Source: Quadrisphaera granulorum
GTDB lineage: Bacteria > Actinomycetota > Actinomycetes > Actinomycetales > Quadrisphaeraceae
Assembly (NCBI RefSeq): GCF_003149145.1
Contig: NZ_QGDQ01000020.1
Span: 1-64,000 of the forward strand
Length of the DNA stretch: 64,000 bases
Direction: 5' to 3'
A program made the position numbers and the translations under genes. The notes under the pieces are model-generated. The model was not told where the DNA came from. It made no database searches and saw only the letters and a list, made by a program, of their open reading frames with translations. Numbering within the stretch: position 1 is the stretch's first letter; each line of letters starts with the position of its first letter. Below, piece after piece: positions 2,926-53,032 of this stretch.

Positions 2926-3732
2926 GTGATCGTGGACATCGACCGCATCGTCCACGACATCCACGATGCCGCCGCCACCTTCCTGCGGCCGCGTTTCCGA
3001 TCGCTCGAGGTCGGGCACGTCCGGGAGAAGGCTCCGGGCGAGCTCGTGACCGTCGCGGACGAGGAGTGCGAGGCGCACCTCGGTCCAGCCCTGCTGGCGG
3101 CATGCCCCGGGAGTGTCCTCGTCGGGGAGGAGGAAGCCTCGCGAGACAGCTCCGCCCTCGCGCTGCTCACCGGTGACAGCCCGGTGTGGCTGCTGGACCC
3201 GCTGGACGGGACGGCAGCGTTCGCGGCCGGCACCCCGGACTACGCCGTCATGGCTGCCCTCGTGGTCAGGGGTGAGAGCGTCCTGTCCGTGATCCACCAG
3301 CCCGAGTACGGGTGCACCTTCGTGGCGGAACGCGGCTCGGGCGCCTACGAGCTCTCCTCCGGCGCGCGCCTGCGCCCCGGCCCAGCCGGGGCGGGCGCGC
3401 AGCTCCGCGGAGCGGTCATGCGTCGCTTCCTCCCACCCGACGTCGCGGCAGTCATCGAGAGGAACGCGAGCAGGTTTCCCACCCTGGAGCCCGTCACGAA
3501 GACGGCGGGAGTCGAATACCCCGCGATCGCCAGCGGCCACCGAGACTTCATGCTCTACTGGCGCACCCTGCCCTGGGACCACGTCCCCGGGGGCTTGCTC
3601 ATCGCTGAGGCCGGCGGCAGAGCGGCGCACCTCGACGGCGGGCGCTACCGGCTCCAGGAGCGGCGCGAGGGTCTGCTCGTGGCCGGTTCTCCTGATCGGT
3701 GGGAGCGTGCACGCGAGGAACTCGGCGTCTGA
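2926..3732 (+). CDS. Inositol monophosphatase-family phosphatase
   Basis: 268 aa, GTG start. This is a Mg2+-dependent sugar or inositol phosphate phosphatase of the IMPase/FBPase/CysQ superfamily. The metal-binding motifs are present: VGEEE (about 66-70), LLDPLDGT (89-96) and WDHVPG (217-222), the last in place of the usual WDxAAG. The second metal Asp is kept in DPLDGT. No signal peptide, so cytoplasmic. The substrate cannot be read from the sequence; myo-inositol phosphate (relevant to mycothiol and phosphatidylinositol), histidinol phosphate or PAP are possible. It stands alone after the hairpin at 2845-2880. Confidence 0.85.
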   Translation: MIVDIDRIVHDIHDAAATFLRPRFRSLEVGHVREKAPGELVTVADEECEAHLGPALLAACPGSVLVGEEEASRDSSALALLTGDSPVWLLDPLDGTAAFAAGTPDYAVMAALVVRGESVLSVIHQPEYGCTFVAERGSGAYELSSGARLRPGPAGAGAQLRGAVMRRFLPPDVAAVIERNASRFPTLEPVTKTAGVEYPAIASGHRDFMLYWRTLPWDHVPGGLLIAEAGGRAAHLDGGRYRLQERREGLLVAGSPDRWERAREELGV

Positions 3733-3928
3733 GGCGCCACTCCGGCGCACGAGTACGGGTGGGTCCCCGCGCACGCGGTGCTCCTCGCGGCATTCAGGTG
3801 TCCAGCAGCCCACGTTCATGCGGACGACACAGGAACAGTGGGACCCTCCCTTCGGAACGAGTGCTCACAGCAACTCATCGGGTGCTACTCATCGAGGCAC
3901 GACCGGGACGACGGGTCAGGTGGCGGTC

Positions 3929-5555: not shown

Positions 5556-6658
5556 TCAGCGGCCGGTGAGCTCCGCTGCCACGAGCTCGGCGATCTGCGC
5601 CGTGTTCAGCGCGGCGCCCTTGCGGAGGTTGTCGCCGCAGACGAACAGGTCGAGGGTGTGCGGGAAGTCCAGCGCCTGGCGGATGCGCCCCACCCAGGTC
5701 GGGTCGGAGCCCACCACGTCGGCGGGCGTGGGGAAGTCACCGTTGGCCGGGTCGTCCAGGACGACGACGCTGGGCGCCTCGACCAGCGCCTGGCGCGCCG
5801 CCTCCACCTTGATGGGCTTCTGGAACGTCGCGTGCACGGCCAGGGAGTGCGTGGTGACCACGGGCACGCGCACGCACGTCGCGGAGACCTTGAGGTCGGG
5901 GATGCCGAGGATCTTGCGACTCTCGGCGCGCACCTTGAGCTCCTCGCTGGACCAGCCGTCGTCCTTGAGGGAGCCCGCCCACGGCACCACGTTGAGCGCC
6001 AGCGGAGCGGGGAACGGCGACGGCTCGTCACCGAGGCGGTCGGCGATGGCGGCGCGCACGTCACCGGAGCGGGTGCCCAGCGTCGGATCTCCGGAGACGG
6101 CCTCGAGCTCGGCGTGGAGCCGGTCGATGCCGGGCTGCCCCGCGCCGGAGGCGGCCTGGTAGGAGGCCACGACGAGCTCGGTGAGCCCCCACTGACGGTG
6201 CAGGGCGCCCAGGGCGTCCATCATCGTCAGCGTCGTGCAGTTGGGGTTGGAGATGATCCCCTTGGGCCGGTTGCGGATGGCCGCCGGGTTGACCTCAGGC
6301 ACCACGAGCGGCACGTCCGGGTCCATCCGGAACGCTCCGGAGTTGTCGACGACGACGGCGCCGCGGGCAGCCGCCACGGGCCCCCACTGCGCGCTGACCT
6401 CGTCGGGCACGTCGAACATGGCGACGTCGACGCCGTCGAAGACCTCGGGCGCGAGGGCCTGCACCACGACGTCCTCGCCACGCACCCGCAGCACCTTGCC
6501 GGCGGAGCGGGCCGAGGCGACGAGGCGGATCTCGCCCCAGACGTCCTCGCGGGTGGACAGGATGCCGAGCATCACGGTGCCGACGGCGCCGGTGGCGCCG
6601 ACGACGGCGAGGACGGGCTTGCGCCCCTGGCCGCTCTGCTGCGCGTTGCCCACGGCGC

Positions 6659-8058: not shown

Positions 8059-9426
8059 ATGGCGCCGCTGCAGATCACCGCCCTCACCGCCGAGCGGTCG
8101 GCGCTGGCACTGCCCGACCTGCCCTGGGACGCTCCACTGAGCCGCTGGCCGGCCGAGCACCTCGCCGCGCTCCCCCGCGGTATCTCCCGGCACGTCGTGA
8201 GGTTCGTCCGTCTGGCCGACAGCGTGGTGGCGGTCAAGGAGAACACCGAGGAGCTCGTCCGTCGCGAGTACGGGCTGCTGCGCATGCTGCGGCGCCTCGA
8301 CGTGCCCTGCGTCGTCCCCGTCGCGGTCGTCACCGGGCGCGCCGACCCGGATGGCGAGCCGCTCGACCCGGCCCTGGTCACCCAGCACCTGCAGTTCTCG
8401 CTGCCGTACCGCGCGCTGTTCAGCCAGTCGCTGCGCCCCGACACAGCCACCCGCCTGGTCGACGCCCTCGCAGTGCTGCTCGTGCGCCTGCACCTGGCGG
8501 GCTTCTACTGGGGCGACGTGTCGCTGTCGAACACCCTGTTCCGCCGTGACGCGGGCGAGTTCGCCGCCTACCTCGTCGACGCCGAGACCGGCGAGCTGCA
8601 CCAGGAGCTGTCCGACGGGCAGCGCGAGAACGACGTCGAGGTCGCCCGGATCAACATCGCCGGCGAGCTCATGGACCTCGAGGCCGCCGAGTACCTCGAC
8701 GAGAGCGTCGACCCGATCGAGGTGGCCAACAGCATCGTCGATCGCTACCACACGCTGTGGGAGGAGCTCACGGGCCAGGAGTCGTTCGAGCAGGGCGAGC
8801 GGTGGCGGGTGCAGGCCCGCATCGAGCGCCTCAACGAGCTCGGCTTCGACGTCGGCGAGCTGTCGATCAGCACCGACGTCGGCGGAGCCATGGTCCAGAT
8901 CCAGCCGAAGGTCGTCGACGCCGGGCACCACTCCCGCCGCCTGCTGCGCCTGACGGGCATCGACGCCGAGAACAACCAGGCGCGGCGCCTGCTCAACGAC
9001 ATGGACAGCTTCATCGCCGCCAGCGACCGCCAGAACGACGACGAGGAGATCGTCGCCCACGACTGGCTCGCGCAGGTCTTCGACCCGGTGGTGCGTGCCA
9101 TCCCCCGCAAGATGCGGCGCAAGCTGGAGCCCGCGGAGGTCTTCCACGAGGTGCTCGAGCACCGCTGGTACCGCTCCGAGCAGGCGGGGCGCGACATCCC
9201 GCTGCTGGAGGCCGCGCGTTCCTACGTCGAGGAGGTGCTCGCGCAGCGCCCCGACGAGCAGGCGCTCATCCTGCAGACCGGTCTCATGGACACCGGTCAG
9301 ATGAAGGCGGTGGGCATGGACCGCGACGAAGCCCCGCTGCTGGGGTCAACCGGGCCGGACGGCTCCGACGATGCTGACGACCCGGAGTCCGACCGCATCG
9401 ACGGCTGGCTCTCCAGCCACGGCTGA
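8059..9426 (+). CDS. DUF4032 protein with a lipopolysaccharide-kinase-like fold
   Basis: 455 aa, ATG with GGAGG eight bases upstream. The N-terminal half looks like an atypical small-molecule or protein kinase of the Kdo/WaaP type: a candidate ATP lysine in [10 protein letters not shown] (K60), a catalytic-loop-like [17 protein letters not shown] (D153, N158) and a metal-binding-like VDAETGE (D174). The second half matches the DUF4032 region found only in actinobacteria. No membrane segment. Its substrate is unknown. It is transcribed divergently from lysC. Its last 130 bases are also coding on the opposite strand (9297-10571), and its TGATCA-embedded stop precedes the 15-bp repeats. Confidence 0.8.
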
Positions 9427-10571
9427 TCAGGGCCGCTCTGTTCAGGGCTGCTCTGTTCAGGGCTGCTCTGTTCAGGGCTGCTCTGTTCAGGGCCGTTCAT
9501 CTGTGGGCTGCGGCGCTCACCCTCGCGCTGGTCGACGACGTCCTCGGGAGTCCACACCCTCGTGCGGCCGCGCCCTGCGCGCTTGGCGACGTAGAGCGCC
9601 TGGTCGGCGCGGCGCATCGCGCTGTCGACGTCGTCGGCGGTGCCCAGGCCCGTGACACCGGCGGTGCAACTGCGACCGGCGGGCAGAGCCTCGCGCAGGG
9701 CGTCGACGAGTTGTCCCGCCGCGACAGGCTCCAGCCGCGCCAGCATCACGAACTCGTCACCACCCCATCGGCCGAGCACGGCTGAGGGGGGCAGGATCGC
9801 CCACCATGCGGTGGCTGCGGCACGGAGCAGTTCGTCACCGGCGGCGTGGCCGAGGGAGTCGTTGACCTGCTTGAAGTGGTCGAGGTCGATGATCGCCAAT
9901 GAGAGCGGAGCCCCGGCGCGGTGACCGGCCAGAGCCGTCAGGAGGCGGCTCTGGGTGCCGCGGCGATTGGGCAGGGCGGTGAGCACATCGACCTCGGCGG
10001 CCAGCACCGCACTCGCGGTGAGGCGCGAGAGCGCACCGACGATGCCCCCCACGACCAGGTTGCCGCAGACCATGATGAGGATGTCTCCGGTGGCCACGCC
10101 TGGAACTGACCCCAGGGCCAGCACGAGCAGCGCGGTGTTCACCACAACGTGGATCCCGGCCGTCGTCCAGGGGAAGAAGAAGAACGCCAGCGCGGCGAGC
10201 ACCAGGTACAGCGAGGCATCGGCGACGCTGGCGGTGCCCCCTCCGTCGAGGTGGATCCCCAGCGCCGCCGCGAGGCCGGTCGCAGGCTGGAGGAAGTGGT
10301 AGTACCACTTGCGGTAGTAGCGGCGCCCCAGAAAGATCACCGCTCCACCGAGGCAAGCGGCGACTCCCACCCAGAACGGAGGTCCCGGGGCGGTGAAACC
10401 GGTCCGCAGCAACGAGGCCACCGCGATGTAGGCGCCACAGGCCAGCATCACCAGGCTGGTGGTCCACACCATGGCCGTCAGGCTGGCCACAGGTTGGGCG
10501 CGGGACAGCTCGAGGATGAGGGTGTGCCACCGCGTGCGGCGCAGGCGGTGGCCTGATGTCGGTGCGCTCAC
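9297..10571 (-). CDS. Membrane diguanylate cyclase (GGDEF)
   Basis: 424 aa. It makes c-di-GMP from two GTP. The N-terminal half has about five membrane segments ending in a conserved-looking LAFFFFPW (128-135). The GGDEF domain (about 195-345) is intact: IIDLDHFKQVND (227-238) and GRWGGDEF with the signature at 270-274. No RxxD inhibitory site lies five residues before it, so product inhibition by that route is not expected. The tail (359-385) consists of PEQSS repeats, and the frame only ends at 9297, 130 bases inside the opposite gene. The GTG start overlaps the stop of the upstream EAL gene (GTGA). The two share a similar membrane region. Confidence 0.88.
   Translation of the reverse strand: MSAPTSGHRLRRTRWHTLILELSRAQPVASLTAMVWTTSLVMLACGAYIAVASLLRTGFTAPGPPFWVGVAACLGGAVIFLGRRYYRKWYYHFLQPATGLAAALGIHLDGGGTASVADASLYLVLAALAFFFFPWTTAGIHVVVNTALLVLALGSVPGVATGDILIMVCGNLVVGGIVGALSRLTASAVLAAEVDVLTALPNRRGTQSRLLTALAGHRAGAPLSLAIIDLDHFKQVNDSLGHAAGDELLRAAATAWWAILPPSAVLGRWGGDEFVMLARLEPVAAGQLVDALREALPAGRSCTAGVTGLGTADDVDSAMRRADQALYVAKRAGRGRTRVWTPEDVVDQREGERRSPQMNGPEQSSPEQSSPEQSSPEQSGPDQPWLESQPSMRSDSGSSASSEPSGPVDPSSGASSRSMPTAFI
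9430..9489. repeat. Four tandem 15-bp repeats between convergent genes
   Basis: Four units of the form GGGCTGCTCTGTTCA start at 9430, 9445, 9460 and 9475, the first differing at one base. A degenerate fifth follows. Read on the minus strand they encode Pro-Glu-Gln-Ser-Ser pentapeptides in the tail of the GGDEF protein; on the plus strand they lie just after the DUF4032 stop. Because the unit is 15 bp, gain or loss of copies keeps the minus-strand frame. Confidence 0.9.
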
Positions 10572-12358
10572 GCGCCGGCCCCGAGCCGGGAGGCCTCGCT
10601 GAGCAGGCGCTTCGCGAACGCCCCGGTGGGGAGGGCGGGCGCCCACAGCCAGCCCTGTCCCTCCTCGCACCCGTGCTCACCGAGCCAGGAGGCCTGGTGC
10701 GGCGTCTCGACGCCTTCGGCGACGATCGTGAGGTCGAGGGCATGGGCGAGAGCGATGACGCCCGCGCACAGCGGCGCCTCGTGCCCCTCCTCGACGGCGG
10801 TGACGAAGCTGCGGTCTACCTTGAGGACGTCGAGCGGCAGCGAGCTCAGGCGGGCCAGACCCGACCAGCCGGTGCCGAAGTCGTCGACGGCGATCCGGAC
10901 CCCCGCCGCGCGCAGGGCGTGCAAGTTGTCCACCACCGCGGGCGAGTGCTCGTCGAGCTGCCCCTCCAGCACCTCGACCACAAGCCGCCGCGAGGGGAGC
11001 CCGGCTCGGTGGAGCGCGGCCACCACCCAGGCGGCGTAGTCCGGCTCTTCCAGCTCGGGCCCGGAGGCGTTGACCGCCACGGTGAGCGGCACGCCGTCCG
11101 CGGGGACGGGCCAGGAGGCCGCGTCGATGCAGGCACGCTGGAGCACGTGGCGTCCCAGCTGGACCACCGCCCCGCTGGCCTCGGCCTGCGGCAGGAAGTC
11201 GCCCGGGGGCACGTAGCTGTCGCCGCGACGCCAGCGGACCAGCGCCTCAGCGCCCGTGGTGCGACCGTCGAGGAGCCGGACGACAGGCTGGTAGTGGACC
11301 TCGACGGAACCGTCCTCGAGGGCGGCGTACAGGCCGCGGACCGTCGGCAGTCCCGGCGTCCACAGGTGGCTCGAGCCGCGCTGGTGGCGCTTGGCGGCAG
11401 CGAGGGCGCCTTCAGCCCTGTCGACCAGGTCGCGCACCTCGTCACCGACCTCCGCGATGACGACACCGCTGCTGGCGCTGTGACCCTCGGGGACGGCGGC
11501 GTGCAGCTGCGCGACGAGCTGGCGGGCGGCTCCGGCCTCGGCGCGCACCAGCAGCGCGTACTGGTCGCCGCCCCAGCGCCCCAGCACCGCGCCGCGCGGC
11601 AGCAGCCCGCGCCAGGCGACGGCGGTGGCACGCAGGAGGGCGTCACCGGCGGCGTGGCCCGCGCGCTGGTTGGTGCTCTGCAGGTGGTCGACGCCGAAGA
11701 GCGCCAGCACGAGCGGAGGCCCACCGCGCTGTGCGGCCTCGAGTGCCCGTTCGAGGCGCTCGGTGGTGGTGGTGCGGTCAGGCAGAAGGGTGAGCGGATC
11801 GATGCCGGACACCTCGGCAGCCCGCGCCAGGGCGCGGACGGCGACGGCGAGCGCCACGACCACGCTGGCCACCATGGCCACGCCGCCGGGCTCCAGAGAG
11901 CCGGAGGACCCCAGGGCAAGGCTGAGTCCGGCGACGATCAGCGCCACGTGGGCCGCTGCTACCGCCGCGGGGAAGAAGAAGACCGCCTCCACCGCAACCA
12001 ACGCGAAGATCCACGCGTCCGCCCACCCGTCGGGCCCCGCGGAGCTGACACCGACGGTGATCACGATCACGCCGCTGAGGTGGGTGAGGTGGTAGTGCCA
12101 CACGCGCATCCGGCGTCGCAGCGCGTGCACCCCGGCCGCGGCCAGGACGCATCCGCCGATGAACGCGGGCGCGAGTTCCCCGTGCGTCAGGCCGGGGCGC
12201 AGCAGGTACCCGACGAGCACGACGCCCGCCCCCGAGAGGTACAGCGCCACCGTCGTGCGGTTCATGACCGCGGCGGTGACCCCGGGACGGCTGGCGGTGG
12301 CAAGACCTCGCAGGCCGCGCGCCGCGGCGCCGACCGCCGCCGCTGCGCGCTGTCTCAC
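10568..12358 (-). CDS. Membrane GGDEF-EAL protein, probable c-di-GMP phosphodiesterase
   Basis: 596 aa if the GTG at 12358 is used; an internal ATG at residue 32 (MNRTTVALYLSG) may be the true start. About five membrane segments precede a degenerate GGDEF domain: GGDQY (263-267), and FGVDHLQSTN where the first metal Asp is replaced. It is unlikely to make c-di-GMP but may bind GTP. The EAL domain is intact in the motifs I can check: GAEALVRW (E371), VNASGPEL, DDFGTGWSG, LKVDRSF, VAEGVET and the Gln in EGQGWLW. It should hydrolyse c-di-GMP to pGpG. It is the first gene of an overlapping pair with the cyclase. Confidence 0.88.
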   Translation of the reverse strand: MRQRAAAAVGAAARGLRGLATASRPGVTAAVMNRTTVALYLSGAGVVLVGYLLRPGLTHGELAPAFIGGCVLAAAGVHALRRRMRVWHYHLTHLSGVIVITVGVSSAGPDGWADAWIFALVAVEAVFFFPAAVAAAHVALIVAGLSLALGSSGSLEPGGVAMVASVVVALAVAVRALARAAEVSGIDPLTLLPDRTTTTERLERALEAAQRGGPPLVLALFGVDHLQSTNQRAGHAAGDALLRATAVAWRGLLPRGAVLGRWGGDQYALLVRAEAGAARQLVAQLHAAVPEGHSASSGVVIAEVGDEVRDLVDRAEGALAAAKRHQRGSSHLWTPGLPTVRGLYAALEDGSVEVHYQPVVRLLDGRTTGAEALVRWRRGDSYVPPGDFLPQAEASGAVVQLGRHVLQRACIDAASWPVPADGVPLTVAVNASGPELEEPDYAAWVVAALHRAGLPSRRLVVEVLEGQLDEHSPAVVDNLHALRAAGVRIAVDDFGTGWSGLARLSSLPLDVLKVDRSFVTAVEEGHEAPLCAGVIALAHALDLTIVAEGVETPHQASWLGEHGCEEGQGWLWAPALPTGAFAKRLLSEASRLGAGA

Positions 12359-29350: not shown

Positions 29351-29788
29351 CTAACCCGGCGAGCGCGTGTCGAGCAGGATCGTCAGCGGACCGTCGTTGA
29401 CGAGCTCCACCGCCATGTCCGCGCCGAACACCCCGGTACCCACCCGCAGGCCCCGCTCCCGAAGGCCCTCGACGACGGCGGCCACCAGCGGCTCCGCGAC
29501 GTCACCGCGGGCTGCGCCGGCCCACGTCGGCCGCCGACCCTTGCGCGTGTCGGCCAGCAGCGTGAACTGGCTGACCACGATGACCGGGGCGCCGACGTCG
29601 ACGGCGGACAGCTCCCCGCGCAGCACGCGCAGGTCGGCCACCTTCCGCGCCACCTGGGCGGCGTCGTCGGGGCCGTCGTCGACGGAGACACCGACGAGGA
29701 CCACCAGGCCCGGGCCGTCCAGGGACGCCACCACCTCGCCGTCCACCACCACGCGGCCGGAGGAGGCGCGCTGCACCACAGCCCTCAT
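29351..29788 (-). CDS. dtd: D-aminoacyl-tRNA deacylase
   Basis: 145 aa. It removes D-amino acids (and glycine from tRNA-Ala) mistakenly attached to tRNA. It begins [20 protein letters not shown], as DTD proteins do; [17 protein letters not shown] and [12 protein letters not shown] are the two cross-subunit motifs (S-Q-x-T-L and N-x-G-P-x-T). Length is normal. The ATG at 29788 is preferred to an open extension of 14 residues. It follows the asparaginase gene by 16 bases on the same strand, so the pair may be an operon. Confidence 0.94.
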
Positions 29789-29804
29789 CGCGCGCTCCCC
29801 GGCG

Positions 29805-30863
29805 TCACAGCAGCCCGTCCGGCAGGGCACGCGCTGGCGGCGACGGGGCCGCGGGAAGCACCTGCGGGAGCACCGCCCTCACCGCGCCCACGGGACGGCC
29901 GTGGCCGAGCACCGGGACCCGGCCGACCTCGTCGAGAACGGCAGCCTCGACGCCGAGGGCGCGCAGCACCGCCGCCAGCACCACGGGACGCGGCCGGTCA
30001 CCACCGTCGAGCACCTTGAGCGCCACGCCCCGCCCGTCCGGCAGACCGGCCGCGTAGACGCCCTCCGCGCCGTCCTTGGCGACCAGACCGGGGACGCCGG
30101 CCATGAGCGCGGTGACGTCCCGGCCGGTGCCACCGACCATCTCGGGGTGGGTGCTCATGGCCCGGGCGACGGCGGCTTCCGGGCTGCCGGGGGCCTGCTC
30201 CGGGGCTGCGGCGATCCGCCCGAAGGCACGCGCCAGCCCCGACAGCGGCAGCGAGTGCAGCGGCGCCCCGCAACCGTCGACGGTGGTCAGGTTGTGGGCG
30301 CTCGACCCCAGGTCCGCGACGGTCGCCCGGACCTGACGCTGGAGCGGGTGACCGACGTCGAGGTAGGTGCCGGTGTCCCAGCCGGCCGCCACGCACGCCG
30401 CGAGCATCGCCGCGTGCTTGCCGGAGCAGTTCTGCGCCAGCGGCTGCGGGCCGTTCCCGGCCGCGCGCCAGGCCGCGGCGGCCTGCGCCCCATAGGGGAG
30501 GTCAGGGGTGTTCCGCAGTGACGACGGGCCTAGGCCGGCCGCGGCGAGCAACTCCAGCACGCCGTCGAGGTGCCGCTGCTCGCCACTGTGGCTCGCGCAG
30601 GCCAGCGCCAGCAGACGGCGGGAGCGGTCGTCGTCGTCGGAGAGATCGAGACCGGCCTGCAGCGCCGCGACGGCCTGCAGCGGCTTGAGGCTGGAGCGCG
30701 GCCAGACGCGCACGTGAGGGTCGCCCAGGCCCGAGACGGCCTCGCCGTCGGGACCGGTGATCACGAGGTGCCCCAGGTGCACGGACTCCACGAGGGGCCC
30801 TCGGACGACGGCGGCCAGCGGTGCGGCGAGCCCGGCGAGGGAGAGGTCGAGCGGCTGCGTCAC
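29805..30863 (-). CDS. L-asparaginase, Rhizobium etli (ReAII/PF06089) type
   Basis: 352 aa. It hydrolyses asparagine to aspartate and ammonia. It belongs to the structurally separate ReAII class rather than the bacterial AnsA/B fold: [10 protein letters not shown] holds the Ser-Lys dyad, [15 protein letters not shown] the Cys/Lys zinc site, and [11 protein letters not shown] the second cysteine. THPEMVGG is also conserved. No signal peptide, so cytoplasmic. The same gene is adjacent to dtd or ygfZ in many actinobacteria. Confidence 0.88.
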
Positions 30864-30929: not shown

Positions 30930-33254
30930 GTGGCGCGCGCAGGACGGAGACTGGCGACGGTCCGTGACGTCGCCGCTGCCGTCGGTATGGCCGTCGCGCT
31001 CGCGGCGGCCGTCGCCGTCGTCGTCCTCCTCACGATCGTGGTCGCGCTGCAGCCACCGGCGACCGCGGTGCGGGTGCTCGGAGCGGTGCAGGTCGTCGGG
31101 GTGCTCGGCGTGCTCGCGGGGGTGCTGTGGAACCGGCCGGCCCGCCCCCTGGTCTGGTGGGTGCTGCTGGCGGTGTCGGTGCTCTACGGCGCGGCGTGGT
31201 GGGGAGTCGTGCTCGACGCCACCAGCGTCTACGTGGGGCTGGCGTGCACGGGGGTCTTCGTGGGCCTCGGTCGCGTCGTCGTGATCGCGGGCCGTCTGTC
31301 AGAGCGGGACGCCGCCATCGACGCCGTCGACGTGTCCCTGCTGGCGGTGGCCGCCGCGTCCTCATCGCTGACGCTGCTGGCCGTGCTCCACATCTCCCCG
31401 GGCGCGTCCCCGCAGTCGTGGGGGCCCATGAGCACCGCGGAGGTGTGGCTCGCCGCCCAGGCATCCGGGACCGTGGTGGTGGCGGCTGCCGGTGCCTGGG
31501 CGGTGGCCACCGGGCGGCTGCGCTCGGCTTCGGTGCAGCTGCTCGTGATCGTGGCCGGGTCGCTGCTCGTGTGGCACGTGGCGACCATCGCCGAGGCCCT
31601 CACGCGCGGGTACGTCCCCGGCACCATCGCCGACGCTGCGCTCGTGCCCGCGTGGTCGGCGTTCGCGGCCGCGGCCTGGCACCCGTCGATGAGGGCGCTG
31701 GGCCGCCCCGTCGCCCCGTCCGGCCGTCGGTTCCCCGCCACCCTGGCCGTGCTGGGCGCAGGGGTGACCCTCGTGCTGCTGCCCGGCCTCAGCCGGTGGA
31801 CGGACGCCGCCGAGCCGACACCGCTGCTCGTCGCGGCCTCGGCGCTCACCGTCGCCCTGCTCGTCCTGCGGCAATGGCTGACGACGCGGCGCGCTCGCCG
31901 CAGCGGCGGGGTCGACCCGCTCACTGGCCTGGGCACCCGACGTACGCTGCTCGAAGCCCTCGCCGCGCGCCTGGCTGACCCGTCCAGCCCCGCAGCGCTG
32001 CTGTGCGTCGTCGACCTGGAGGCCTTCGCCGACGTCAACGCCACCCGCGGCCACGCCGCCGGTGACAGCGCCCTGGCTGTCGTGGCGGAGCGGCTGGAGC
32101 GCGCCGGTCCACCCGGGTCACGCACGTACCGCACCAGCGGCGACGGGTTCGCGGTGCTCGCCCCGGACGACGGCACCGGGGGCTCCCCGACGAGCGAGGG
32201 CGGGGCCGAGCCCTCCGCCACGGCCCGCCGCCTGCTGGAGGCCCTCGAGCCCGCCGTCGAGGTCCCGGGCGGCCACGTGCGCCTGCGTGGCCGCGTCGCG
32301 GAGGTACGCCTGCCCGGGCGTCCCAGTGACGACCCGGACGACGCCGAGGCCGTGGCCCGCGGGGCAAACGCCCAGCTCGGAGACGCCGAGCTGGCCCTCG
32401 TCGAGGCCGTCCGCCGCCGGGCGCCGCTGATGCGCGCCACGCCCCAGCTGCTGGCCACCCGCCACGACGAGCGGGTGCTCGCCTCCCGACTGCCCACGGC
32501 GGTCGCCAGCGGCGAGATCGTCGCGCACTACCAGCCGATCGTCAGGCTCGGCGCCTCGTTCCCCGATGACCGCGTCTCCGGGCACGAGGCGCTGGCCCGC
32601 TGGCACCACCCGGAGCGGGGGGTGCTGGGCGCCGAGTCGCTGGTGCCCCTCGCCGAACGCCTCGGGGTGGTGCGGGACGTCGACGAGGCGGTGCTGCGCG
32701 CCGCTCTGCGCGACTGCGCGGCCTGGCGCGCGGGCGGTGCAGCGGACCTGACCGTCTCGGTCAACGCCTCCGCGAGCACCCTGCTGCGCCCGGACCTGCC
32801 CGCGGTGGTGCTCCGGGCGCTCGAGCACGAGCAGCTGCCGGGCACCGCGCTCGTCCTGGAGATCACCGAAGGCTCCTGGCTCACCGACCGGCAGCGCATC
32901 GCCGAGCGGCTGCACGTGCTGCGCGAGCACGGGGTGCGGGTGGCCGTCGACGACTTCGGCACCGGCTACGCCTCGCTGGACTACCTCGTGAGCTTCCCCG
33001 TCGACTCGCTCAAGGTGGACAGGTCGCTGGTCCGCCGGATCGTGGAACCGGCGTGCTGCCGCCTCCTGGCGCGCGTCGTGGAGATCGCCAACGACCTCAG
33101 CATCCTGCCCCTCGCGGAGGGCGTGGACACGGCCGAGCAGGTGGAGCTGGCCAGAAGCCTGGGCTTCCGGGCGGTGCAGGGGTACGCCGTCGGCACGGCC
33201 GTCCCGGCGCCCGGGACGACCAGCGAGCCACCGCTGGCGGAGGCGACGTCCTGA
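30930..33254 (+). CDS. Membrane GGDEF-EAL protein, probable c-di-GMP phosphodiesterase
   Basis: 774 aa. About eight membrane segments (residues 15-315), then a GGDEF domain whose signature is SGDGF (403-407), probably inactive as a cyclase, then an EAL domain. The EAL domain keeps GHEALARW (E553), VNASAST, LEITEG, DDFGTGYASLDYL and LKVDRSL. AEGVET reads AEGVDT, and the Gly-Gln-Gly segment near the end reads VQGYAVGTAVP. Hydrolysis of c-di-GMP is likely but could be weakened. The GTG start has only a distant GGGAG. It converges on rsiG with 12 bases between the stops. Confidence 0.85.
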   Translation: MARAGRRLATVRDVAAAVGMAVALAAAVAVVVLLTIVVALQPPATAVRVLGAVQVVGVLGVLAGVLWNRPARPLVWWVLLAVSVLYGAAWWGVVLDATSVYVGLACTGVFVGLGRVVVIAGRLSERDAAIDAVDVSLLAVAAASSSLTLLAVLHISPGASPQSWGPMSTAEVWLAAQASGTVVVAAAGAWAVATGRLRSASVQLLVIVAGSLLVWHVATIAEALTRGYVPGTIADAALVPAWSAFAAAAWHPSMRALGRPVAPSGRRFPATLAVLGAGVTLVLLPGLSRWTDAAEPTPLLVAASALTVALLVLRQWLTTRRARRSGGVDPLTGLGTRRTLLEALAARLADPSSPAALLCVVDLEAFADVNATRGHAAGDSALAVVAERLERAGPPGSRTYRTSGDGFAVLAPDDGTGGSPTSEGGAEPSATARRLLEALEPAVEVPGGHVRLRGRVAEVRLPGRPSDDPDDAEAVARGANAQLGDAELALVEAVRRRAPLMRATPQLLATRHDERVLASRLPTAVASGEIVAHYQPIVRLGASFPDDRVSGHEALARWHHPERGVLGAESLVPLAERLGVVRDVDEAVLRAALRDCAAWRAGGAADLTVSVNASASTLLRPDLPAVVLRALEHEQLPGTALVLEITEGSWLTDRQRIAERLHVLREHGVRVAVDDFGTGYASLDYLVSFPVDSLKVDRSLVRRIVEPACCRLLARVVEIANDLSILPLAEGVDTAEQVELARSLGFRAVQGYAVGTAVPAPGTTSEPPLAEATS

Positions 33255-33266
33255 TGTGACGGTGCG

Positions 33267-33812
33267 TCAGCCGACGCGGAGGCGACGGCCGAGCTCCTCG
33301 GTGAGCTGGCTCTCCACCTGCTGCACGCGGCGCCGCGTGGTGGAGAGGCGCTGCTCGATACCCCGCAGGTGGTCGATGATCTCGGTGAGCTCGGCGTCCG
33401 ACAGCTCCCCCGGTGCGGAGGTGCGCACGTCGGCCACGGCGAGCTCGGCCTCACGGCGGTGCTCGCCGATGCGGCTCGGCTCCACCGAGAGGAACCTGCC
33501 GATGCCCCGGGTGGTTCGCGTCTCGTCGGCGAGGATGCGGGAGAGGGCCTGCGCCAGCTCCGCATCGCTGCGAGCGGCCCCGCGGCCGGGAGCCGGCAGC
33601 TCCCCGCTGCGGTGCGCCCGCTCGGCGTCCAGGAGGTCGAGGCGGCCCTGGAGCAGGCGGCGGACGTAGGAGAGGTCGGCCTCTTCCTGCTGCGCATCGT
33701 CGCGCCGGGCCCGGAGAACCTGGTCGTCCAGAGACGAGAGGTCGTCGGAGAAGGCGGGGTCGAGCACGTGGTCGAGCCGTCGCCGCCCACCGGGCCGGTA
33801 GTCCAGCGTCAT
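33267..33812 (-). CDS. rsiG: RsiG-like c-di-GMP-dependent anti-sigma factor
   Basis: 181 aa, mostly helical. Residues 44-59 (EADLSYVRRLLQGRLD) fit the signature E(x)3S(x)2R(x)3Q(x)3D of Streptomyces RsiG exactly. There this helix binds c-di-GMP, and the RsiG-c-di-GMP complex captures the sigma factor WhiG. A second copy at 153-168 (EQRLSTTRRRVQQVES) matches four of five positions, with Ser for the final Asp. Streptomyces RsiG has two such motifs, Rubrobacter one. Such genes are often labelled aerial mycelium formation protein. The ATG at 33812 is preferred; the frame is open beyond. No WhiG/FliA gene is in the window. Confidence 0.85.
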   Translation of the reverse strand: MTLDYRPGGRRRLDHVLDPAFSDDLSSLDDQVLRARRDDAQQEEADLSYVRRLLQGRLDLLDAERAHRSGELPAPGRGAARSDAELAQALSRILADETRTTRGIGRFLSVEPSRIGEHRREAELAVADVRTSAPGELSDAELTEIIDHLRGIEQRLSTTRRRVQQVESQLTEELGRRLRVG

Positions 33813-34276: not shown

Positions 34277-34798
34277 TCAGCCGACGCGGCGCAACCGGGC
34301 TGACAGGCGCGGGTGCAGCGGCTCGGTGGAGCTGGCCACGTCGAGCACCCAGAGGAGGTCTCCCTCGACCTGCCCGAACGTGCGCTTGGCGGCGGTGTAG
34401 TCGCTCGCCCCCGCCGTGCGGACCACCGCGTCGGTGACCATCTCGACGCGGGTGCCGAGCACGCGCCCGACGAACACCTCGACGATGCCCGTGGGGTGGG
34501 CCAGCAGCAGCTCCACGTCGACCCCCGGCTTGCCCGGGGAGGACTGCTCGGCAGAGGTCCGCCAGTAGCCGGTCTCGGTGTCGAGCGGCTCGGTGCGCCG
34601 CCCCTCCGCATCGAGCCGCCACACGCGGGAACTCCAGCTCAGGAAGCCGCGCTCGTCAGCGATGACGTCGACCTCCTGCCCGACCTGGGACTCACCGGCC
34701 TCCGGGGAGGCGATGACCCCCGCGCCGGCCCAGCGGCCCACGAGCCAGCTGAGCGGGACGAGGGAGGCCGGCAGCGATGCGTCGATCTCCAGGGGCAT
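34277..34798 (-). CDS. Nitrobindin-type heme protein (FABP/DUF1794 family)
   Basis: 173 aa. A ten-strand beta-barrel family; mycobacterial and human nitrobindins bind heme b and isomerise peroxynitrite to nitrate. Seen: the N-terminal PLSWLVGRWAGAGVI (G-x-W-x-G-x-G motif) and, near the end, STEPLHPRLSARLRRV with the proximal histidine. No signal peptide. A cytoplasmic role against nitrosative stress is known for the family and inferred here. The ygfZ gene on the same strand nearby is a common neighbour. Confidence 0.87.
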   Translation of the reverse strand: MPLEIDASLPASLVPLSWLVGRWAGAGVIASPEAGESQVGQEVDVIADERGFLSWSSRVWRLDAEGRRTEPLDTETGYWRTSAEQSSPGKPGVDVELLLAHPTGIVEVFVGRVLGTRVEMVTDAVVRTAGASDYTAAKRTFGQVEGDLLWVLDVASSTEPLHPRLSARLRRVG

Positions 34799-39477: not shown

Positions 39478-40224
39478 GTGGCCCAGCTCCTGCTGTTGAC
39501 GAACGCGCTCGCCCCCTCGGCTGAGGTGCTACCCGCACTCGGACTGCTCGCGCACTCCGTGCGTGTGCTGCCCGCCGAGCCGGCAGCGCTGGTCGACGCC
39601 CCACCCGCCGATGCGGTCCTCATCGATGCGCGCCGCGAACTGGCCTCGGCCCGTTCGCTGTCCCGCCTGCTGCGCACCACGGGTGTCAGCTGTCCGCTGT
39701 TCGTGGTGCTCACCGAGGGTGGTCTCGCCGCTGTGGCGGCGGACTGGGGCGCTGACGATGTGCTGCTCGACACCGCCGGCCCCGCAGAGGTCGAGGCGCG
39801 GCTGCGTCTGGCCGTGGGTCGCGCGGCCCTCGCCGAGTCCGACGACGACGCCCCGGAGGAGATCCGCGCGGGAGACGTCGTCATCGACGAGTCGACCTAC
39901 ACCGCGAAGGTCCGTGGTCGCTCCCTCGACCTGACGTACAAGGAGTTCGAGCTCCTCAAGTACCTCGCGCAGCACCCTGGCCGGGTCTTCAGCCGCGCCC
40001 AGCTGCTGCAGGAGGTGTGGGGGTACGACTACTTCGGCGGCACCCGCACCGTCGACGTCCACGTCCGTCGGCTGCGCGCCAAGCTCGGCCCCGAGCACGA
40101 GCAGCTCATCGGCACCGTGCGCAACGTCGGCTACCGCTTCGTGCCTGCCAACCGGGAACGCCGCGAACTCGACCTGCGCTCCGGTGCGGTGCTCGCCGAG
40201 GACGACGCCGTCGCCGACCACTGA
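39478..40224 (+). CDS. glnR: Nitrogen regulator GlnR (atypical OmpR-type)
   Basis: 248 aa. Orphan response regulator controlling nitrogen assimilation genes in actinobacteria. The receiver starts [19 protein letters not shown] and retains the aspartate of VLIDARRE (D50), but lacks the usual acidic cluster, as in Streptomyces GlnR, which works without phosphorylation. The winged helix ([20 protein letters not shown] ... [19 protein letters not shown] ... NVGYRFV) is nearly identical to Streptomyces. The GTG has GGAGGAC just upstream. Followed by 13-bp stop-bearing repeats and a hairpin; glnR-mshD-ppk order is conserved. Confidence 0.95.

Positions 40225-46843: not shown

Positions 46844-46847
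<4 letters not shown>
45174..46847 (+). CDS. kdpA: Potassium-transporting ATPase subunit KdpA
   Basis: 557 aa, the same length as E. coli KdpA. Ten membrane helices with four selectivity-filter-type loops related to K+ channels; [19 protein letters not shown] and [13 protein letters not shown] are clear examples. It takes up K+ and passes it to KdpB. High-affinity K+ import under K+ limitation or osmotic stress. Overlaps kdpF by one base and kdpB by four (ATGA). Confidence 0.97.
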
Positions 46848-48982
<2,135 letters not shown>

Positions 48983-48993
48983 AAGGCACCGCC

Positions 48994-49611
48994 GTGTCCC
49001 GCGTGCTCGACCTCACCCGCCAGTCCGCCGCAGGCCTGCGCCTGCTCGTGGCTCTCACCGTGCTCCTCGGCCTGGTCTACCCCGCCGTGCTGCTGGGCGT
49101 CGGCCAGCTCGTCCCCGGCCGCGCGAACGGCTCGCTGATCACCCTCGACGGGCGCACCACCGGCTCCTCCCTCATCGGCCAGCAGTTCGGCACCGACGAC
49201 GACCCGGCCTCGCAGCTCCCGTGGTTCCAGCCGCGGCCCTCGGCGGCCGGCACGGGCTACGACCCGCAGTCCTCCGGCGCCTCCAACCTCGGCCCGAACA
49301 ACGCCGACCTGGTGAAGACCATCGAGGACCGGCGCGCCGCCGTGGCCTCCCGCGAGGGCGTGGAGCCGTCCGCCGTCCCCGCCGACGCCGTCACCGCCTC
49401 CGGCTCCGGCCTGGACCCCGACATCTCCCCCGCCTACGCGCAGCTGCAGGTGGCGCGCGTGGCCCGCGAGCGCGGTCTGCCGGTGGCGCAGGTGGAGCAG
49501 CTGGTGGAGCAGAACACGCACGGCCGTGACCTCGGCTTCATCGGGGAGCCCAGCGTCGACGTCGTCACCCTCAACGCCGACCTGGCCCGTCTGGGTAGCC
49601 CCCAGGGGTGA
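48994..49611 (+). CDS. kdpC: Potassium-transporting ATPase subunit KdpC
   Basis: 205 aa, GTG start with GAAAGG upstream, 11 bases after kdpB. One N-terminal membrane helix (LRLLVALTVLLGLVYPAVLLG) and an extracytoplasmic domain containing QQFGTDDDPASQLPWFQPRPSAAG, SGASNLGPNN and DISPAYAQLQVARVARERG, all typical of KdpC. It assembles with KdpA and KdpB. Its stop overlaps the kdpD GTG. Confidence 0.96.
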   Translation: MSRVLDLTRQSAAGLRLLVALTVLLGLVYPAVLLGVGQLVPGRANGSLITLDGRTTGSSLIGQQFGTDDDPASQLPWFQPRPSAAGTGYDPQSSGASNLGPNNADLVKTIEDRRAAVASREGVEPSAVPADAVTASGSGLDPDISPAYAQLQVARVARERGLPVAQVEQLVEQNTHGRDLGFIGEPSVDVVTLNADLARLGSPQG

Positions 49612-52306
49612 GCGCAGCGAGCGTGGAGCTGCCGCCGGAGGAAGATGAGCCGGTGGACGGCGGGACCGGAGTGGGAGGTGGCAGGCGAGGCAAGCTCCGC
49701 GTCTACCTCGGTGCGGCGCCCGGTGTCGGCAAGACGGTGGCGATGGTCAGCGAGGGCCGTCGGCGGGTCGAGCGCGGGCAGGACGTCGTCGTCGCGTTCG
49801 TCGAGACCCACGGGCGCACGCACACCGCCGCCGCGCTGGACGGGCTGGAGCAGGTGCCCCGCCGCCGTGTGGTCTACCCCACCTCGCCGGGGGCCGTGCC
49901 GACGACGCTGGAGGAGATGGACGTCGACGCCGTCCTGGCCCGCGCACCTCGGCATGCCCTGGTCGACGAGCTGGCCCACACCAACGCTCCAGGTTCGCGC
50001 AACGCCAAGCGGTGGGAAGACGTCGAGGAGCTGCTGGCGGCGGGTATCGACGTCATCACCACCGTCAACGTGCAGCACCTGGAGTCGCTCAACGACGTCG
50101 TCGCGCAGATCACGGGGGTGCGCCAGCGCGAGACGGTCCCTGACGACGTCGTGAGGTCTGCCGACGCCATCGAGCTGGTGGACATGAGCCCGCAGGCGCT
50201 GCGCCGCCGCCTGGCACACGGCAACGTCTACGCCGCCGAGCGGGTCGACGCGGCGCTGGCCAACTACTTCCGCGTCGGCAACCTCACGGCGCTACGCGAA
50301 CTGGCGCTGCTGTGGACGGCAGACCGCGTGGACGCCGCGCTGGCCCTCTACCGCGCAGAGCAGGGCATCGCGGCGCCGTGGGGTGCTCGCGAGCGCGTCG
50401 TCGTGACCCTGACCGGCGGTCCGGAAGGTGATGCGCTGGTGCGCCGCGCCGCACGCATCACCCAGCGGGCTGCGGGTGGAGAGCTGCTCGCGCTGCACGT
50501 CTCGCGCTCGGACGGGCTGACCGGTGCCGCCCCGGACGCGCTGGCCCGCCAGCGGCTGCTGGCAGAGAGCCTGGGCGGCAGTTGGCACTCGGTGGTCGGC
50601 GAGGACGTCGCCACCGCCATCCTCGACTTCGCTCGCGGCGTCAACGCCACGCACATCGTGGTCGGCGCGAGCCGTCGCAGTCGGCTCGCTGCGGCCCTCT
50701 CCCCGGGCGTGGGGCAGCGGGTGATCGACGGGTCGGGCGACATCGACGTCCACGTGGTCACCCACGCCTCGGCCCGTGGCCGGCACGGGCGGCTGGAGCG
50801 CCGGTCGGCGCTCTCCGCGCTGCCGGTGCGACGCCGAGCCGCCGGCTGGGCTCTGGCGACGGGCGGGCCGGTGGCTCTCACGGGTCTGCTGCACCTCACC
50901 CGCGTCAACCACGAGCTACCCAGCGAGCTGCTGCTCTTCCTCGCGCTGGTGGTGGGCGTGGCACTGGTCGGCGGCATGTGGCCGGCGCTGCTGGCCGCGG
51001 TGCTGTCGGGGCTACTGGCCAACTGGTACTTCACCCCGCCCTACGGCACGCTCACCATCGCCTCACCGGCCAACGCCGTGGCGCTGTTCGTGCTGGTCAG
51101 CGTCGGTGCCGCGGTGGCTGCCGTGGTCGACACGGCCGCGCGGCGCGCCCGCGAGGCAGCCCGCGCCCGTGCGGAGGCCGACGTGCTGGCCACGCTCGCG
51201 GGCAGCGTGCTGCGCGGTGCCGAGGCGGTGCCTGCGCTGCTGGACCGGCTGGTGGAGACCTTCGGGCTGCGGGGCGCCGCGCTGTTGGAGCGCACCCAGG
51301 ACTCCCCTGGCACCGCCCACGACCTGTGGCGCGTGGTGGCCTCGCAGGGGTGCCCGCCCCCGTCCTCCCCCGACGCCGCGGACGCGGCGCTGCCCGTGGA
51401 CGAGCACCTCAGCATCGCCATCACCAGCCAGGGCGACGACCACCGCGGCAGATCGCCGCTGTCGGCCTCGGACCTGCGGGTTCTGACGGCCGTGGCCACG
51501 CAGGCCGGCTCGTTGCTGGAGCGAGACCGGCTGCGCGAGGCCGCCCGCGCCGCGCGCCGCGAGGAGGAGCGCACCGCCACCCGCACGGCGCTGCTCGCCG
51601 CCGTGTCCCACGACCTGCGCACGCCCCTGGCCAGCGTCAAGGCGTCGGCGTCCACGCTGCGGGCTTTCGGCGCCGAGCTCGACGCGGCTGACCGCGACGT
51701 GCTGCTGGCCGATGTGGAGACCTCCGCGGACCGGCTGCAGGCGCTGGTCGACAACCTGCTGGACATGAGCCGGCTCGACGCCGGCGCCGTGCGCGCACGC
51801 GTCGAGGCGGTGGCCCTGGACGAGGTGGTGCCGCGGGCGCTAGCCGGCCTCACCCCGGAGCAGGCCGCCGCGGTGGTGCTGGACGTCCCGGAGGACCTGC
51901 CGCTGGTCGACGCCGACGCCGGGCTGCTGGAGCGAGCGCTGGGCAATGTGGTGGAGAACGCGCTGCGCCACGCCGTGCCGCACGCGCCGGGCCAGCCGGT
52001 CGAGATCTCCGCCGGCCTCGTGGAGGACTCCGCCGCGCCGGGTGGGCGCGGCGGCCGGCGCGTGGTGGTGCGGGTGGTCGACAGAGGCCCCGGCATCCCC
52101 GACGAGCGCAAGGCCGCGGCGTTCTCCGCGTTCCAGCGCCTCGGTGACGCCCCCGGCGGGCTGGGCGTGGGGCTCGGTCTGGCGGTGGCTCGCGGTCTGG
52201 TGGAGGCCAGCGGTGGCACGGTGGAGGCCGACGACACCCCCGGTGGCGGCCTCACCGTGGTCTTTTCGCTCCCCGCGGCGGTCGTCAGTGCCCAGGAGGT
52301 GACCGC

Positions 52307-52310
<4 letters not shown>
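49608..52310 (+). CDS. kdpD: Sensor histidine kinase KdpD
   Basis: 900 aa. N-terminal KdpD domain with Walker A GAAPGVGKTVAMV and a Walker B-like region ALVDELAHTNAPGSRNAKRW. A USP-like domain then binds second messengers in other species (c-di-AMP in firmicutes). Four close membrane helices lie around 405-500. A GAF-like region follows, then the kinase core with the H-box AVSHDLRTPLASVKAS and an ATPase with VENALRHA and DRGPGIPDERK. It controls KdpE. GTG start in a four-base overlap with kdpC. Confidence 0.95.

Positions 52311-53032
<722 letters not shown>

Follow-up and report, generated by a model that had tools for sequence, protein, structure and literature searches.

A putative c-di-GMP-responsive RsiG orthologue with one altered motif, adjoining a GGDEF-EAL gene in a Quadrisphaera-type bacterium

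In the 64-kb stretch of DNA analysed here (64,000 nucleotides, referred to as the window), a gene for a homologue of the anti-sigma factor RsiG lies tail-to-tail with a gene for a membrane protein of GGDEF-EAL type, named PDE-A. The gene order is dtd-like, asparaginase-like, PDE-A, rsiG, THAP4-like. "Named loci" below are the best 80 of 125 confirmed.

29351..29830, minus strand: gene taken to be dtd-like (D-aminoacyl-tRNA deacylase); near rsiG in 25 of the 80 named loci (best 80 of 125)
29805..30863, minus strand: gene taken to be asparaginase-like; near rsiG in 51 of the 80 named loci (best 80 of 125) and in 11 of 30 Streptomyces-type loci
30987..33254, plus strand: membrane protein with a degenerate GGDEF site and an EAL domain whose residues are in place (PDE-A), convergent with rsiG; start uncertain, ATG 30987 or GTG 30930
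33267..33812, minus strand: rsiG homologue, 181 aa, assigned by PF22802, phmmer and fold
33309..33356, minus strand: motif 2, E-S-R-Q intact, Asp replaced by Ser168 and preceded by Glu167, from pattern match and survey
33636..33683, minus strand: motif 1, E-S-R-Q-D intact, from pattern match
34277..34798, minus strand: THAP4-like gene for a haem-binding beta-barrel; found close to rsiG in 24 of the 80 named loci (best 80 of 125) and in 0 of 30 Streptomyces-type loci

Elsewhere in the window, a GlnR-type response regulator is encoded at 39478-40224, and potassium-transport genes of the kdp type (P-type ATPase, KdpC, KdpD and a response regulator) occupy 46844-53032.

The rsiG reading frame runs on the minus strand from an ATG at 33812 to a stop codon at 33267-33269. 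Its product is matched in two stretches by the PF22802 RsiG profile (E 6.1e-21, 74.3 bits against a curated cut-off of 27), and phmmer aligns residues 6-181 with S. venezuelae RsiG, 6pfj (E 1.2e-14), and also finds the RsiGs of 7lq2-7lq4 (E 6e-5 to 1.6e-4), the first of which is named 'RR RsiG'. Because of these profile and phmmer matches, the homology is independent of the motif. Searches of NCBIfam and PADLOC assigned no family. The match is the single one to PF22802 in the 4.88-Mb genome, and one RsiG match per genome is likewise found in all 13 genomes of the window's family (f1), which comprises four genera (g1 to g4, g1 being that of the window). Among the best 80 of 125 confirmed named loci, two RsiGs come closest, one from Quadrisphaera sp. 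INWT6 (86% over residues 1-181) and the other from a record with the title Streptomyces sp. NP160 (88% over 1-173). The latter record (L091, NZ_VDMJ01000057), with an RsiG 88% identical to that of the window and the same gene order, is probably mislabelled.

The AlphaFold model, computed with 41 aligned sequences and no templates (mean pLDDT 80.7), contains two long helices, 30-69 and 139-180, carrying motifs 1 and 2, respectively, and a linker whose residues 96-107 fall below a pLDDT of 50. A Foldseek search of the PDB returned four matches at E <= 0.001, all of them S. venezuelae RsiG (E 3.5e-5 to 4.7e-4, TM 0.61-0.74), and the antiparallel coiled coil of RsiG is thus recovered by AlphaFold and Foldseek together. 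Gene order points in the same direction. The dtd-like gene is a synteny anchor, being present in 30 of 30 Streptomyces-type rsiG loci (1.5-kb flanks); since the dtd-like and asparaginase-like neighbours are shared, the order seen in the window is partly old and supports orthology with Streptomyces rsiG. The term Streptomyces-type denotes genus f34/g101, which we infer to be Streptomyces from the 232.7-bit match of one of its RsiGs (L170) to 6pfj. Judged by sequence and predicted fold, the window encodes the RsiG orthologue of its host, a bacterium of Quadrisphaera type. The initial annotation had called it RsiG-like, which profile, phmmer and predicted fold bear out, and had placed it outside the classical Streptomyces setting; such settings do exist but are already published, in the form of 130 twin-motif RsiGs, many of them in Geodermatophilaceae and Pseudonocardiaceae (PMC8325347).

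Both motifs are found as first described. Motif 1, residues 44-59 (EADLSYVRRLLQGRLD), matches E(x)3S(x)2R(x)3Q(x)3D at five of five positions, and motif 2, residues 153-168 (EQRLSTTRRRVQQVES), at four of five, with Ser168 in place of Asp and Glu167 directly before it. When the residues of the protein are shuffled, a five-of-five match arises in 108 of 100,000 trials, and such a match together with a second of at least four of five in 2 of 100,000. The five motif-1 residues lie on one predicted helix (30-69) and fall within an 80-degree arc of an ideal helix. On a 3.5-residue coiled-coil wheel, the position of Glu167 is in register with the motif Glu and Arg. A canonical twin-motif RsiG carries the complete pattern E(x)3S(x)2R(x)3[Q/H](x)3D on both helices; the motif-2 Asp is missing here, and the protein is therefore filed as a variant.

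The distribution of this variant was followed in a motif survey of 222 matches. Eight were left out, one as truncated (L140) and seven as falling below 80 bits (L048, L271, L273, L274, L275, L276, L277), and the remaining 214 collapse to 162 distinct RsiGs by identity of the last 100 residues; among the rows left out, L271 and L273-L275 retain the motif-2 Asp. The 80 named loci (best 80 of 125), found via two peptide patterns taken from close relatives, lean to intact motifs, a bias from which the PF22802 searches, whose hits were fetched in part, are free. Two intact motifs, with Gln or His allowed at the fourth place, occur in 133 of the 162 proteins, and the motif-2 Asp is present in 147. 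Thirteen of the 15 exceptions belong to family f1, where the replacing residue is Ser (3), Gly (3), Ala (1), Gln (2) or Arg (4); the other two, L136 (Leu) and L195 (Streptomyces-type, Asn), have no Glu before the altered place. Five further RsiGs (L106, L111, L121, L132 and L265) have lost the Asp of motif 1 (Ala or Ser) and carry His at the Gln place; two of them come from records titled Candidatus Nanopelagicales.

Within f1, the nine genomes of g1, g3 and g4 behave uniformly. All nine have S, G, A or Q at the motif-2 Asp place, preceded by a Glu that occurs in 0 of the 153 other distinct RsiGs, and all retain the E, S, R and Q of motif 2 and an intact motif 1 (Gln or His fourth); in the window's genus, nine of the ten motif residues are thus kept in 6/6 genomes. 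In the order-level sample, both motifs are intact in the neighbouring families f5, f13 and f14 and in records named Kineosporia and Kineococcus, the exception being family f17 (L018, L020, L037), in which the motif-2 Glu and Ser are lost and Arg, Gln and Asp retained. The nine RsiGs form one clade with support 95 in a 41-row tree from which the motif columns were excluded, and in an unrooted 82-row tree g1, g3 and g4 stand together across a branch of support 81, with the long row L049 also outside. As they form a single clade, the loss of Asp accompanied by Glu167 probably happened once. The surrounding families mostly have two intact motifs, and for this reason the loss is derived.

The fourth genus, g2, has gone further: motif 1 reads E-A-R-D-A and motif 2 E-T-R-L-R in 4/4 genomes. 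Pairwise dN/dS values of rsiG (0.12-0.33 in g2, 0.07-0.23 in g1) suggest that the g2 gene is still under constraint despite the erosion of both motifs. In the free tree the g2 RsiGs form a long branch apart from the rest of f1, and a single clade is not rejected (p-AU 0.169); they are treated as the same gene because each f1 genome holds one RsiG match and because the g2 loci contain PDE-A and the THAP4-like gene.

Two side observations arose from the survey. Several metagenome-assembled records that hold an RsiG (titled Bifidobacterium breve, Spirochaetaceae and Alphaproteobacteria) appear mislabelled or mixed. A second compact RsiG-like family ('SYWRR' type) is encoded alongside classical RsiG at L276 (G286:C11:173736), L277 (G258:C41:151768) and L048 (G001:C1:228231); several PF22802 places per genome occur in the class, where this family is perhaps widespread, and in L276 and L277 the second helix reads by eye D/E-S-R-H-D, so that they may be small twin-motif paralogues.

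As for the partner sigma factor, a sigma of the WhiG/FliA type is present in the window's genome, namely the WhiG L002, at 279.2 bits against a curated cut-off of 189.6 and with the block VKYVAGR. WhiG exceeds this cut-off in 12/13 f1 genomes, including 3/4 of g2, the exception being G111, an assembly of about 580 contigs. A second, weaker FliA-type sigma (156.7-172.1 bits) occurs in 10/13 f1 genomes, and its contig always carries a flagellin-domain match no more than about 2.5 kb away; in G040:C3, for example, the sigma gene spans 234857-235534 and flagellin begins at 235985, and on contig G000:C2 of the window's genome the sigma gene spans 3175-3819, with a flagellin-domain match at 6015. 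Flagellin-domain genes are found in 12/13 f1 genomes. In S. venezuelae, K57, G61 and R62 of WhiG contact c-di-GMP (PMC8325347), and by our own reading these would correspond to K, G and R in the sequence VKYVAGR. This block, as VKYVAGR or VKFVAGR, is kept in 11 of 12 f1 WhiG copies, g2 included. The remaining copy, L070 (G125:C1:589382), is unreadable there, its profile match starting only at position 20, perhaps owing to a frameshift or an error in sequencing. The sigma of the flagellar cluster reads VGYQVxE or VGHVVRE at this place in 10/10 aligned sequences, and the K/G/R contacts are absent. Because WhiG keeps the contact residues and the flagellar-cluster sigma is without them, WhiG is the likely partner of the window RsiG, and the flagellar FliA is not predicted to be one. 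A consensus scan for WhiG-type promoters with a fixed spacer of 15 yielded no convincing candidate in the 64-kb window (3 matches at 3 mismatches, 2.5 expected); across the whole genome it gave 18 matches, compared with 8 for the reversed pattern.

The convergent neighbour ends at 33254, leaving the 12-base gap to the rsiG stop at 33267 that the initial annotation had described. PDE-A has about seven hydrophobic segments (Kyte-Doolittle). Its GGDEF site is degenerate, reading SGDGF, and the EAL, N, E, DD, K, E and Q residues, which we take as the catalytic set of the EAL domain, are in place in the alignment, so that by this residue test PDE-A is predicted to be an EAL phosphodiesterase. The membrane-bound proteins of this kind from g1, g4 (G248) and g2 form one clade with support 99, and in ten aligned members the GGDEF site is degenerate throughout (SGDGF, AGDTF, GPQTL or GPQTV) and the EAL residues are in place (10/10). 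PDE-A lies near rsiG in 6/6 genomes of g1, 1/2 of g4 and 3/4 of g2; when any GGDEF/EAL gene is counted, g3 is added with 1/1, the other three genera being unchanged. The arrangement itself varies. In g2, PDE-A precedes rsiG and has the same orientation; G125 and G139 have an additional GGDEF-EAL gene, its GGDEF site intact, that lies between the two and overlaps the rsiG 3' end by 38 bases; and in g3 a relative of this second gene (PDE-B), whose EAL Gln is changed to Met, stands alone beside rsiG. G153 has no GGDEF/EAL gene near rsiG, and in G111 the DNA upstream of rsiG differs from that of G040. The overlapping second gene was located at L084:4544-6013 and in L083, both from Quadrisphaera-group genomes.

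A GGDEF/EAL gene is found within 2.5 kb of rsiG in 9/10 fetched f1 loci and in the window, compared with 1/62 loci elsewhere. The corresponding Fisher p for 10/11 vs 1/62 is 1.9e-10, a value that ignores relatedness and derives from queries that were f1's own GGDEF-EAL proteins. The count covers the 72 of 163 distinct loci with 2.5 kb on both sides; the 91 left out include all 30 of Streptomyces type (3.2 kb). Given the f1 queries and the absence of Streptomyces-type loci from the count, these figures may exaggerate the difference between f1 and other families. The sole linked locus outside f1, L244, encodes a GAF-GGDEF protein, intact by eye, that is also convergent with rsiG. A single adjacency has an estimated chance of about 2% (52 x 2 / ~4600 genes, the gene number being assumed), as the window's genome has 27 EAL matches and 52 matches to the GGDEF-EAL query. 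The stronger point is that the linkage is kept through changed gene order, although within four related genera only it may be inherited synteny. The cyclase/phosphodiesterase pair that the initial annotation had placed 20 kb away was also recovered, at a distance of about 21 kb from rsiG; it consists of a GGDEF gene, with its match at 9567-10211, and a GGDEF-EAL gene at 10568-12358. The two adjoin each other on the minus strand at 9297-12358.

Among known systems, S. venezuelae RsiG (6pfj/6pfv), the twin-motif anti-sigma factor of WhiG, is the closest in homology over the whole length, in predicted fold, in the five identical key residues of motif 1, in the presence of WhiG in the genome and in the dtd-like gene near Streptomyces-type rsiG. 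It differs in that the window protein has Ser for the motif-2 Asp with a Glu one residue earlier, and in that the window gene adjoins a degenerate-GGDEF-EAL gene in a host with flagellar genes. The Rubrobacter radiotolerans RsiG, a single-motif homodimer (PMC8325347), has a motif helix homologous to that of the window; the window protein, unlike it, contains both helices and should be monomeric, and its incomplete motif is best read as a loss, not as an ancestral single motif. In Streptomyces, the GGDEF-EAL protein RmdB, listed as a 6TM-GGDEF-EAL protein (PMC6205966), binds WhiG via its GGDEF domain and displaces RsiG (2026; PMC13232838). PDE-A resembles RmdB in membrane-GGDEF-EAL architecture, in its EAL residues and in its association, as a c-di-GMP enzyme, with RsiG-WhiG, which in the window is one of gene linkage alone. 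It is not an RmdB orthologue, however: its best matches in three Streptomyces-type genomes are L278-L280, in which GGDEF is intact, and the reciprocal search with L279 returned another gene of the window's genome, C16:66647, as best (over 25-728) and PDE-A as 15th of 52. L278-L280 are called RmdB-type from hydrophobic N-terminal segments and the lack of a PAS-like region, nine loci having been read of 19 matches in the three genomes.

Taken together, the locus is best explained, with a probability of roughly 0.6, by a c-di-GMP-armed anti-WhiG factor that has one remodelled site and a local phosphodiesterase. At high c-di-GMP, RsiG would bind a c-di-GMP dimer as a monomeric antiparallel coiled coil and sequester WhiG; as c-di-GMP falls, WhiG would be freed to act. 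Each motif of the Rubrobacter complex uses its Asp to read an outer guanine at the Watson-Crick face (PMC8325347). Without this Asp in motif 2, one end of the dimer should be held less strongly or less tightly, and Glu167, with a longer acidic side chain one position earlier, might replace it, as the geometry of the coiled-coil wheel would allow; the remodelled site would then have a lower affinity or recognise the guanine in another way. PDE-A could deplete c-di-GMP around the complex and thereby promote the release of WhiG, acting as a local off-switch for sequestration. Nucleotide binding and the monomeric state of RsiG, WhiG as partner and the regulon of the pair, the role of Glu167, and the phosphodiesterase activity and regulatory role of PDE-A are all predictions. 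The altered site could also simply be dying, given that both motifs are eroded in the sister genus g2.

A rival account sees an RsiG of the usual c-di-GMP-armed kind that can do without the second Asp; Glu167 would be neutral, and the c-di-GMP dimer would be bound as in Streptomyces but at slightly lower affinity. We regard it as a tentative but quite possible alternative. It is favoured by the unequal Asp contacts of the Rubrobacter complex (2.9-3.0 vs 3.6-3.9 A; PMC8325347), one of which may be expendable, by the losses in L136 and L195 without a preceding Glu and in the five proteins altered in motif 1, and by the drift of residue 168 within the g1/g3/g4 clade. That Glu167 stays invariant (9/9) while residue 168 drifts is unexpected for a neutral passenger, yet one clade amounts to one event. 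The loss of c-di-GMP control in the family, complete or under way, would make RsiG a nucleotide-independent anti-sigma factor, regulated through its abundance or through the linked membrane GGDEF-EAL protein. Such a course fits g2, with its eroded motifs, constrained rsiG, WhiG in 3/4 genomes and PDE-A near in 3/4, but it is improbable, as g1 keeps nine of its ten motif residues in every genome and WhiG retains the nucleotide contacts, even in g2.

Still less probable is an action of RsiG on the flagellar FliA, by which motility would be gated. The initial annotation had expected a flagellar target, and flagellin-domain genes with a FliA-like sigma nearby are indeed common in the family, WhiG and flagellar sigmas having a common promoter specificity (PMC8325347). 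The family has two such sigmas, however, and only WhiG, which lies outside the flagellar cluster, keeps the K/G/R contacts (11/12 vs 0/10); WhiG itself might act on some flagellar genes. The proposal that the protein is an evolutionary intermediate between single- and twin-motif RsiG, suggested by one perfect and one imperfect motif, has next to no probability and is rejected from the motif survey and the unrooted tree: twin-intact RsiGs prevail overall and in most neighbouring families (f17 excepted), and the Asp loss with Glu is limited to one clade of this sample and is secondary. The initial observation is thus confirmed, and its interpretation is partly supported.

As of 2021, RsiG-WhiG was the only known sigma-anti-sigma pair targeted by c-di-GMP, and its motifs were described as 'strikingly well conserved' (PMC8325347). 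Quadrisphaera and Kineococcus are not mentioned in the text of that paper, whose supplementary list of 135 homologues may include the group, and the passages of PMC13232838 on neighbouring genes do not mention a linkage to rsiG. Searches of the open-access literature on RsiG, WhiG and c-di-GMP returned no description of the Asp loss or of a linkage between rsiG and a GGDEF/EAL gene.

The remodelled clade, the eroded g2 proteins and the linked phosphodiesterase-like family constitute a natural series for probing each nucleotide contact. The series bears on whether the anti-sigma factor functions without ligand, and on whether local phosphodiesterase control like that of RmdB (PMC13232838) arose elsewhere via another enzyme. 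A more far-reaching and, at present, doubtful idea is that the Quadrisphaera family is in the course of reshaping its c-di-GMP-armed RsiG-WhiG switch, the acid having shifted from Asp168 to Glu167 and g2 having then become nucleotide-free under the control of the membrane GGDEF-EAL protein. If this were true, the shift would alter affinity or ligand preference, control in g2 would have passed to the GGDEF-EAL protein near rsiG, and one family would hold nucleotide-armed and nucleotide-free forms of the same anti-sigma factor.
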